From positions 2,418,001 to 2,482,000 of the forward strand of contig NZ_CP069338.1 in NCBI RefSeq assembly GCF_016859125.1: a DNA stretch of 64,000 nucleotides, written 5' to 3'. Made by a program: the position numbers and the translations under genes. This DNA is from Archangium violaceum (GTDB lineage Bacteria > Myxococcota > Myxococcia > Myxococcales > Myxococcaceae). The notes beneath the pieces were generated by a model that was not told the DNA's origin, searched no databases, and saw nothing but the letters and a program-made list of their open reading frames with translations. Position 1 is the first letter of the stretch; every line of letters starts with the position of its first letter. This document shows, piece by piece, positions 14,067 through 56,570 of the stretch.

Positions 14067-14072
14067 CACCCA

Positions 14073-14112
14073 CCCGCCAGCCCCGGGAAAGGTGTCCCGG
14101 GGCTGGCGGGTT
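14073..14112 (+). terminator. Strong intrinsic terminator hairpin
   Basis: A perfect 17-bp stem: 14073-14089 (ACCCGCCAGCCCCGGGA) pairs with 14096-14112 around the loop AAGGTG. It begins seven bases after the propeller gene's stop. There is no T-run, as is usual at this GC content. Confidence 0.8.
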
Positions 14113-24652: not shown

Positions 24653-24882
24653 TGAACTCGTTCTCCTTCCTCGTGCTTGGATTCCGCTCCGACACCGCCT
24701 CTCCGGAGAGCGGGGCATGAACACCGGGCTCAGGGTTGAAAGAAGCGCTCCTCAGCGGCAACAGTCAGGCGCAGACACTGATTCACTTCAATTCGAGCAA
24801 AACAAATATTCCAAGACCTCCATGCGCGTCAAATGATTCAAGGGCGGGGAATTTTTCCGTTCACCGACCTCGCTCCCGCCTG

Positions 24883-46663: not shown

Positions 46664-46708
46664 CAGACATTCCCCGGGGAAATCACTTACGCGCTGGGGT
46701 GCCTGGAC

Positions 46709-46740
46709 GTGATGCCCGGCTCGAAACAGCCGGGCATCAC
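46709..46740. terminator. Bidirectional terminator
   Basis: Perfect 13-bp stem GTGATGCCCGGCT (46709-46721) with AGCCGGGCATCAC (46728-46740), loop CGAAAC, followed by GTTTC. It separates the convergent DUF1697 and protease genes. Confidence 0.9.
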
Positions 46741-46763
46741 GTTTCACATCACACGGCCCGTCC

Positions 46764-54930: not shown

Positions 54931-54974
54931 TTGCCGTCATGGGTTCCCGGCGCTATAAGTGAATGGAAGGTTCA
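54931..54974 (+). promoter_or_regulatory. TetR gene promoter with overlapping operator
   Basis: TTGCCG (54931-54936), 17 bases, TATAAG (54954-54959): a near-consensus housekeeping promoter. Immediately after it, TGAATGGAAGGTTCA (54960-54974) matches the TGAA-N7-TTCA form of the larger operator at 55611-55641. The ATG of the TetR gene is at 54985, so a bound repressor would block its own transcription start. Confidence 0.65.
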
Positions 54975-54984
54975 CGATTCCGCC

Positions 54985-55599
54985 ATGGCCCAGTACCTCA
55001 AGGATGCAGTCCAGGAAGGCATCGCCTCCGCCGCGCTGAAGGTCTTCGCGCTCAAGGGGTACACGAGCGCGACCATGGCGGAGATCGCCAAGGCCGCGCG
55101 CATCTCCACCGGCAACATCTACCGGTACTACGAGAACAAGAGCGTCCTGTTCGACGAGGTGGTCAGCGACGATTTCGTCCGCACCTTCACGGCCCTCCTG
55201 CGCCAGAGGGTGAAGTCGCTCGACGGGGTCTCCGACGTCCGGACGCTCGGACCGACGGCCGCCTTCCATCTGGCCTCCGAGGAACTGCTCCGGTTCTGCA
55301 TCGACCATCGGCTGCGCGTCATCGTGCTGCTGGGACGCGCCCAGGGCTCCCGCCATGAGGAGTTCTCCGAACGGCTGGTCCAGGAGCTCATCCAGCTCGC
55401 CGTGGCCCACTTCCGCTCGCTCCATCCCGGCACTCGCGTGACCGAAACGACCCGGTTCAACCTGGAGCGCATCTACCGCAACCTCGTGGGCGCCTTGGTG
55501 GACATCCTCACGCGCTTCGAGGAAGAGCCCCTCATCCGAGAGGCCGTCGAGGGTTATTCCAGATACCACCTGGCGGGGCTCGCGAGCCTCTTGGGCTGA
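54985..55599 (+). CDS. TetR-family transcriptional regulator
   Basis: 204 residues. The N-terminal TetR helix-turn-helix is clear: AALKVFALKGYTSATMAEIA then KAARISTGNIYRYYENKSVL. The C-terminal ligand/dimer domain is diverged, as usual. It is followed by an operator-like palindrome (55611-55641) and an NAD(P)-binding protein gene in the same direction. The promoter in front of it overlaps a second copy of the operator half-sites, predicting autoregulation. The inducer is unknown. Confidence 0.93.
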   Translation: MAQYLKDAVQEGIASAALKVFALKGYTSATMAEIAKAARISTGNIYRYYENKSVLFDEVVSDDFVRTFTALLRQRVKSLDGVSDVRTLGPTAAFHLASEELLRFCIDHRLRVIVLLGRAQGSRHEEFSERLVQELIQLAVAHFRSLHPGTRVTETTRFNLERIYRNLVGALVDILTRFEEEPLIREAVEGYSRYHLAGLASLLG

Positions 55600-55610
55600 T
55601 ATTTTTTTGT

Positions 55611-55641
55611 CACATAAATGAACCGTCCGTTCATTTATGTG
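55611..55641. promoter_or_regulatory. Perfect 13-bp inverted repeat, TetR operator candidate
   Basis: CACATAAATGAAC (55611-55623), CGTCC, GTTCATTTATGTG (55629-55641). The core TGAAC-N5-GTTCA is typical of TetR-family operators. A TTGTCA (55607-55612) overlapping its left end could be the -35 box of the next gene. It is strikingly AT-rich for this genome and lies 47 bases before ATG 55689. Confidence 0.75.
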
Positions 55642-55688
55642 GAGTGCACGGCGCGCAGGCCGGAATGGACCGGCGAATGGAGGCGATC

Positions 55689-56570
55689 ATGGCGGGGAAG
55701 ATTCTCATCATCGGGGCAACGGGCGCGGTGGGCCGCGAGCTCCTGGCGAAGCTCGAGACGAGCGGAGAGGAGGTGCTCGCCGCCACGCGAGAGCCGGCAC
55801 GCGCCGCGTCAGGCGTCCGGACGCGGGCCCGCTTCGTCGCGTTCGACCTCGAGCGGCCCGAGACGTTCACCCCGGCCCTGGACGGAGTGGATCGCGTCTT
55901 CCTGATCGCCCGGCCCGGAGACGAGCACTCGGATCGGCTCGCCCTCCCCCTCATCGACGAGATGAAGCGGCGGGGCGTCCAGCACGTCGTCGACCTGAGC
56001 GCCATGGGCGCCGAGCTGCGGAGCGGCTTCGCGCTGCGGAAGGTGGAGCTGTACCTGGAGGACTCGGGTATCGGGTTCACGCACCTGCGGCCCAATTGGT
56101 TCATGCAGGTGTTCAGCTCGGGGACCCTGCTCTCGGGCCTGCGCGCGACCGGCGAAATCCGCATCCCGGCCGGCCACGCGAAGATCTCCTATATCGACGC
56201 GCGCGACATCGCGTCCGTCGCCGCCCTGGCGCTGACCGGGCCCGGCCACAGGGGGAAGGCCTACACGCTCACCGGAGACGAGGCGTTCGATACCGCCGAG
56301 GTCGCACAGTTGCTCTCGCACGCGGCCCAACGGCCCCTGCGGTACGTTCCCCTCGGCGAGGACGAAGCGCGTTCGGCGCTCCGGGGGGCCGGGTTCCCGG
56401 ATGAGTGGATCGAGCGGTTGATTCACTTCTACCGCCTCGTCCGCGAGGGGTTCTGCGCTCCCGTCTCACCCGATGTGCGCACGGTGCTCGGACGCCCCGC
56501 GCTGACCTTCGCCCGGTTCGCGCAGGAGCATGCCTCGCTCTGGGCCACGCCCGGACCTGGGAGGTCATGA
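55689..56570 (+). CDS. NmrA/SDR-type NAD(P)-binding protein
   Basis: 293 residues. Rossmann motif ILIIGATGAVGRELLAKLE near the N-terminus (GxxGxxG), then VDRVFLIARPGDEHSD, HVVDLSAMGAEL, LRPNWFMQVFSSG and YIDARDIASVAALALTG, all typical of NmrA-like/QOR2-type atypical short-chain dehydrogenases, which act as NADPH sensors or quinone reductases. GGAGG lies six bases before ATG 55689; earlier in-frame ATG codons lack such a site. It follows the TetR gene and operator and is the most likely regulated target, perhaps a redox or electrophile response. Confidence 0.9.
   Translation: MAGKILIIGATGAVGRELLAKLETSGEEVLAATREPARAASGVRTRARFVAFDLERPETFTPALDGVDRVFLIARPGDEHSDRLALPLIDEMKRRGVQHVVDLSAMGAELRSGFALRKVELYLEDSGIGFTHLRPNWFMQVFSSGTLLSGLRATGEIRIPAGHAKISYIDARDIASVAALALTGPGHRGKAYTLTGDEAFDTAEVAQLLSHAAQRPLRYVPLGEDEARSALRGAGFPDEWIERLIHFYRLVREGFCAPVSPDVRTVLGRPALTFARFAQEHASLWATPGPGRS

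Follow-up and report, generated by a model that had tools for sequence, protein, structure and literature searches.

A TetR-family regulator of Archangium violaceum with putative operators ahead of both its own gene and the following gene

A 64-kb stretch of the Archangium violaceum genome (the window; positions 2,418,001-2,482,000 on one contig of 12.68 Mb; G+C 0.69) carries a gene for a TetR-family regulator followed by a gene for an NmrA-like NAD(P)-binding protein, and related palindromes, named O1 and O2 here, lie before the two genes. Comparison with relatives of the regulator points, with a probability of about 0.88, to an autoregulated TetR dimer that would also obstruct RNA polymerase at the following gene and thereby control it.

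Materials and methods

The search for close orthologues of the regulator covered three overlapping sets of genomes, 96 from the family, 147 from the class and 195 from the phylum; the regulator of Sorangium cellulosum So ce26 came from one scan of named genomes. A position matrix was built from 14 sites of relatives with the own genome left out, and was made symmetrical by adding reverse complements. Amidase genes were assigned by PF01425 in genomes G042 and G163 and by tblastn matches at eleven other loci (G001, G056, G059, G077, G108, G109, G110, G112, G113, G114, G116). The tree of 19 TetR proteins was rooted at its midpoint for drawing only.

Results and discussion

Gene content of the locus

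The features of the locus are the following:

54931..54959, + strand: putative tetR promoter (TTGCCG at 54931-54936, 17-bp spacer, TATAAG at 54954-54959)
54955..54979, + strand: O1, putative tetR operator of 25 bp, with the core TGAATGGAAGGTTCA at 54960-54974, immediately downstream of the -10 box
54985..55599, + strand: TetR-family regulator, 204 aa, ATG at 54985 (PF00440, E 4.2e-14; AlphaFold2 model with mean pLDDT 91.4)
55585..55608, + strand: weak terminator-like stem with T-run where tetR ends (terminator scan: one found, shuffles mean 0.7)
55611..55641, + strand: O2, putative operator, perfect 13-bp inverted repeat with a centre of 5 bases (conserved extent 55614-55638)
55689..56570, + strand: NmrA-like NAD(P)-binding protein, 293 aa, ATG at 55689 (PF13460, E 6.1e-19; PF05368, E 5.7e-18)

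The start of tetR is the ATG at 54985, since six close relatives begin with MAQ-LKD at the same place; the TTG at 54931, given as start in a mechanical ORF list, is the beginning of the -35 hexamer. The TetR_N helix-turn-helix domain (PF00440) covers residues 13-59 with 52.5 bits (cut-off 24), and the AlphaFold2 model has ten helices in an all-helical TetR fold. In the list of structural matches to this model, DesT, FasR and MtrR, each with DNA, occupy ranks one to four (Z 13.3-14.6). DesT is the best match (3lsp and 3lsr; Z 14.6 and 14.3; rmsd 4.1 and 4.8; 183 and 185 aligned residues), although it shares just 15 and 17% identity and is a lipid-linked regulator (the title of 3lsp names the desCB promoter and oleoyl-CoA). 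We count the DesT-DNA and FasR-DNA complexes at the head of the list as model-based support for a TetR-type mechanism. The best 50 entries listed extend down to Z 11.9, so that they single out no TetR subfamily, nor any ligand class. No solved structure is close in sequence, the best being 4me9 (residues 9-65, E 3.2e-8), and nothing on this regulator was found among the literature matches listed.

The NmrA-like gene has a GGAGG (55679-55683) before its ATG, and its product scores 66.0 bits with PF05368 (cut-off 27) and 69.0 bits with PF13460 (cut-off 27.2). Near the N-terminus it carries GATGAVG, which we take to be the GxxGxxG motif. With 122 bits it stays below the curated cut-off of 256.4 for TIGR03649 (ergot_EASG). 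The weak stem with T-run between the two genes may terminate the tetR transcript before O2; a T-run follows tetR in the congeneric genomes G004 and G006, too. On the other side of tetR lies a divergent GNAT acetyltransferase gene (PF13302; 54320-54835, minus strand). O1 is the sole high-scoring matrix site between these two genes and might also affect the acetyltransferase gene.

The two sites

O2 reads CACATAAATGAAC-CGTCC-GTTCATTTATGTG, and the perfect 13-bp inverted repeat described for this place in the earlier note was found letter by letter. Equally accurate was its description of O1, whose core stands right after TATAAG, itself 17 bases from TTGCCG. Both sites are AT-rich, as had been claimed, with a G+C content of 0.39 for O2 (31 bases) and 0.36 for O1 (25 bases), compared with 0.69 in the window as a whole. 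Inverted repeats with arms of at least 10 and loops of 3-10 bases number four in the window, namely O2 and three others, whose arms are 17, 15 and 11 long; in 40 simulated windows (first-order Markov) the longest arm was 11, below the 13 of O2. Two longer, GC-rich perfect repeats, at 14072-14111 (arms 17) and 46707-46742 (arms 15), both with a loop of 6, are perhaps terminator hairpins. The form of O2 with 11-bp arms and up to three mismatches occurs in the own genome only among the 96 genomes of the family; the outermost letters of O2 are therefore not conserved, and relatives do not keep the full 13-bp arms.

The dyad of O1 is imperfect, with a T opposite a G, and its core ends 10 bases before the tetR ATG. 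Taken by itself, O1 is not remarkable as evidence: allowing up to two mismatches, TGAAC-N5-GTTCA is matched 36 times in the window, where 11.3 matches would be expected, and there are two one-mismatch matches, at 24718 and at 54960 (O1).

The putative tetR promoter agrees with the sigma-70 consensus in 9 of 12 letters, and the arrangement TTGNCN-N16/17-(T/C)ATAAG is common to G004, G006 and Sorangium; a stricter scan requiring the final T reported no tetR promoter. For O2, the most promoter-like sequence is TTGTCA-N17-TTCATT (8 of 12 consensus letters), in which the operator lies within spacer and -10. Sorangium has TTGTCT-N17-TTCATT, and the readings in the other relatives differ and are mostly weaker (scores of 6.5-7.5 across six relatives). 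The stricter scan found no promoter at O2, and the one that we assume there would be weak by consensus.

Conservation with the regulator

Six close relatives of the regulator, from five genomes of the same genus (G002-G006) and from Sorangium, are 57-67% identical to it, and both sites are present at all seven loci including the own one; since five of the six relatives belong to the same genus, these are not seven independent witnesses. The upstream site begins 29-39 bases before tetR in every case, and the second one 15-72 bases behind the tetR stop, ahead of the gene that follows in the same orientation (both measured from the start of the 25-mer). Thirteen of the 14 sites fit RTGAAY-N5-RTTCAY, the exception being O1 of G003, which reads GAGAAC-N5-GTTCAC with a changed first half-site. 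The N5 centres and the surroundings vary between most loci. Matrix positions 1-2 and 24-25 still hold 1.7-2.4 bits; the operator is therefore about 25 bp long (54955-54979 and 55614-55638), with a consensus of about AWNNRTGAAY-N5-RTTCAYNNWT.

The less close relatives in G042 and G163 have one site each, before tetR; that of G163 fits RTGAAY-N5-RTTCAY and that of G042 reads GCGAAC-N5-ATTCAC. The strict site is found at none of 35 further loci with TetR relatives, 11 of which are amidase-linked and have a related site, and it is likewise missing from seven further loci with NmrA homologues. The Sorangium regulator (L005:3001-3612) is 67% identical to that of the window, compared with 57-64% for the proteins of the same genus, and is placed by the tree, weakly, outside of the latter.

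Specificity in window and genome

By the matrix, O2 (38.2) and O1 (33.6) rank first and second in the window, followed by 9.5 for O2 out of register and 9.0 for the best unrelated place; with an earlier version of the matrix these values were 39.2 and 34.4, with 3.7 and 3.1 next. The loose pattern GAAY-N5-RTTC, too, occurs in the 64-kb window at O1 and O2 only.

For the whole genome, the earlier note had proposed a scan for TGAAC-N5-GTTCA and named hundreds of chance matches as an outcome that would speak against the operators. The scan gave not hundreds but 20 exact matches (3 for the reversed control), including O2 and not O1. The 15-bp core alone is thus weak evidence, and the scan of the core does not decide the matter. 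RTGAAY-N5-RTTCAY has 12 places in the genome, namely O1, O2 and ten others, against none for the reversed control. These ten score between 0.2 and 21.6 by the matrix; eight lie inside ORFs with coding-like third-position GC, the ninth is in a frame of 427 codons with GC3 0.87, and the tenth is intergenic (score 7.8). O1 itself would count as within an ORF if the TTG start at 54931 were accepted. From the genome rate of this pattern, assumed to be uniform, the chance of finding both sites at their places is about 5e-9. That the core and the RTGAAY pattern are commoner than their reversed controls might reflect codon or dinucleotide bias, which is a guess.

The extended pattern AWAARTGAAYN5RTTCAY occurs in the 12.68-Mb genome at O1 and O2 only (control 0); its design was based on knowledge of these very sites, and the O1 sites of G004 and G006 depart from it. 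With W required three bases outside each arm, the pattern has 4 to 6 places per genome in six genomes of the genus. Besides the tetR pair, it yields TTGATGAAC-N5-GTTCATCAA in five of the six; in the own genome this sequence is part of a frame that spans 952 codons or more, and its matrix score is 21.6.

The earlier note had taken the two copies as strong internal evidence. The core alone does not carry that weight, and it is the comparison with relatives that makes the case: presence at all seven closely orthologous loci, the matrix ranks and the uniqueness of the AWAA-extended form support two putative operators at the promoters that the TetR protein would control.

Comparison with known systems

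Among described systems, RolR and BioQ of Corynebacterium glutamicum are TetR-type repressors with TGAAC half-sites as well, their operators being TGAAC-N4-GTTCA and TGAAC-N3-GTTAC in the available excerpt of PMC9210681. The spacing there is 4 and 3 instead of 5, and the comparison covers the operator letters. RolR is reported in the same excerpt to occupy a double site of 29 bp with two dimers. The reasoning resembles operator prediction of the Snowprint type, which draws on autoregulation, dyad symmetry and conservation with the regulator (PMC10858194, in excerpt). Snowprint is a method and not a relative, and the present prediction was worked out manually and includes pattern counts over the whole genome as well as negative loci.

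Proposed mechanism and alternatives

We infer that a TetR homodimer would bind an operator of roughly 25 bp. The O1 core stands directly behind TATAAG, and a dimer bound there would therefore cover the expected transcription start of tetR and limit synthesis of the regulator. At O2, the dimer would lie over the region where transcription of the nmrA-like gene starts, possibly between the TTGTCA -35-like element and the poor -10, and keep the gene off, until a small molecule, probably related to a substrate of the NmrA-like enzyme, released the protein. As O2 fits the matrix of the relatives better than O1 and is perfectly symmetrical, repression is predicted to be tighter for nmrA than for tetR. 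The site starts 12 bases past CATAAG in G004 and G006, and in G042 it overlaps spacer and -10 of TTGACA-N17-CATCAT. Blocking of RNA polymerase would be the natural reading.

Some members of the TetR family activate transcription, and NCBIfam names FasR, one of the leading structural matches, an activator. Activation at O2, possibly combined with self-repression at O1, is nevertheless an unlikely mode of action, since O2 lies over the likely start region and not upstream of a -35, a position that favours blocking as far as the uncertain promoter at O2 allows.

Even less probable is that both sites are bound by a regulator encoded elsewhere, with the neighbouring TetR protein as a bystander. The binding protein cannot be named from sequence alone, and at least 11 TetR-like matches exist in the own genome. 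The sites, however, accompany this very tetR although the downstream gene differs (nmrA, DUF6178 or helicase), they recur in Sorangium, they are absent from all 35 of the further loci, and the AWAA-extended form is found nowhere else in the own genome.

Least probable is that O2 acts in the tetR mRNA, as the hairpin of a terminator or attenuator, and not as a binding site for a protein. RNA 55595-55660 would form a hairpin of 14 pairs at O2 (-21.1 kcal/mol and z -2.75 for the whole segment, equalled by 1 of 200 shuffles). However, the T-run stands before this hairpin and not after it, relatives keep the dyad letters with shorter and imperfect arms, and the same dyad precedes tetR, where a terminator makes little sense. 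Examined as an intrinsic terminator, O2 has no T-run behind its arms and was not reported by the terminator scan. The autoregulated, blocking TetR dimer thus remains the preferred explanation.

Genes under the second operator and amidase-linked relatives

The gene behind O2 is nmrA in the own genome, G004 and G006 (proteins 66-67% identical), a gene for a DUF6178 protein in G002, G003 and G005, and in Sorangium a gene for a protein with UvrD-like helicase domains. Control of the NAD(P)-binding gene, as claimed in the earlier note, is supported for this locus; across its range, the regulator is not an NmrA regulator, nmrA being one of three kinds of genes found behind O2.

More distant TetR proteins (36-46% identical) sit with an amidase. 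At the eleven loci assigned by tblastn they are 36-42% identical, apart from the homologue of G059 (40-46% in two pieces). As at the window's locus, a homologous regulator is combined with a GAAY-N5-RTTC palindrome at a promoter, but the outer letters differ (GSGAAY...RTTCGC versus RTGAAY...RTTCAY) and the site lies before the amidase gene, which precedes tetR. The palindrome is present in this form at all eleven loci, 20-113 bases before the aligned amidase start, with a second, overlapping match in G113. Counted by eye, TTGAC stands shortly before it in seven of the eleven and TTGCG in three more. In the own genus, 12 of 15 places with amidase genes were examined; there was no loose GAAY-N5-RTTC near the amidase start, and no TetR relative was found beside these genes.

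In the tree, the seven members with two operators group together (99/99) and the twelve amidase-linked proteins lie on the other side of this branch; the tree does not establish the nmrA-associated regulators as one clade (fork 81/79). The G059 homologue (L021 / L109) has a long branch, and its gene is split over two frames, apparently as a broken gene or through an assembly error. In G163, TetR and amidase domains (PF00440, PF01425) occur in one open frame of 661 aa (G163:C1066, L110:2912-4894), preceded by the one RTGAAY-N5-RTTCAY site; in this incomplete genome, the frame is possibly a natural fusion of regulator and enzyme.

From its wider spread, we infer that the amidase arrangement is ancestral. 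Tentatively, and at slightly less than even odds, the regulator may be a portable switch: a TetR-amidase form with one operator would have gained a second operator behind tetR, under which three unrelated kinds of genes came to lie, with RTGAAY replacing GSGAAY in the outer letters and no change in the inner GAAY-N5-RTTC. STGN(I/V)YRY(Y/F)ENK occurs at nine loci with sites of the RTGAAY type (in G042 in part GCGAAC), in a motif search that missed several loci. A one-to-one link between recognition helix and half-site is not claimed, as G110 has STGNVYRYF followed by PDK together with a GCGAAT site.

Implications

Judged by its sequence, the system is well supported as an ordinary self-regulating TetR switch, in which the controlled gene has apparently been exchanged between relatives. 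It provides a candidate regulator-operator pair whose operator is almost unique in its genome, which is large and GC-rich. Related repressors with their sites before different genes form a small natural series, which would suit the study of target exchange and half-site drift.
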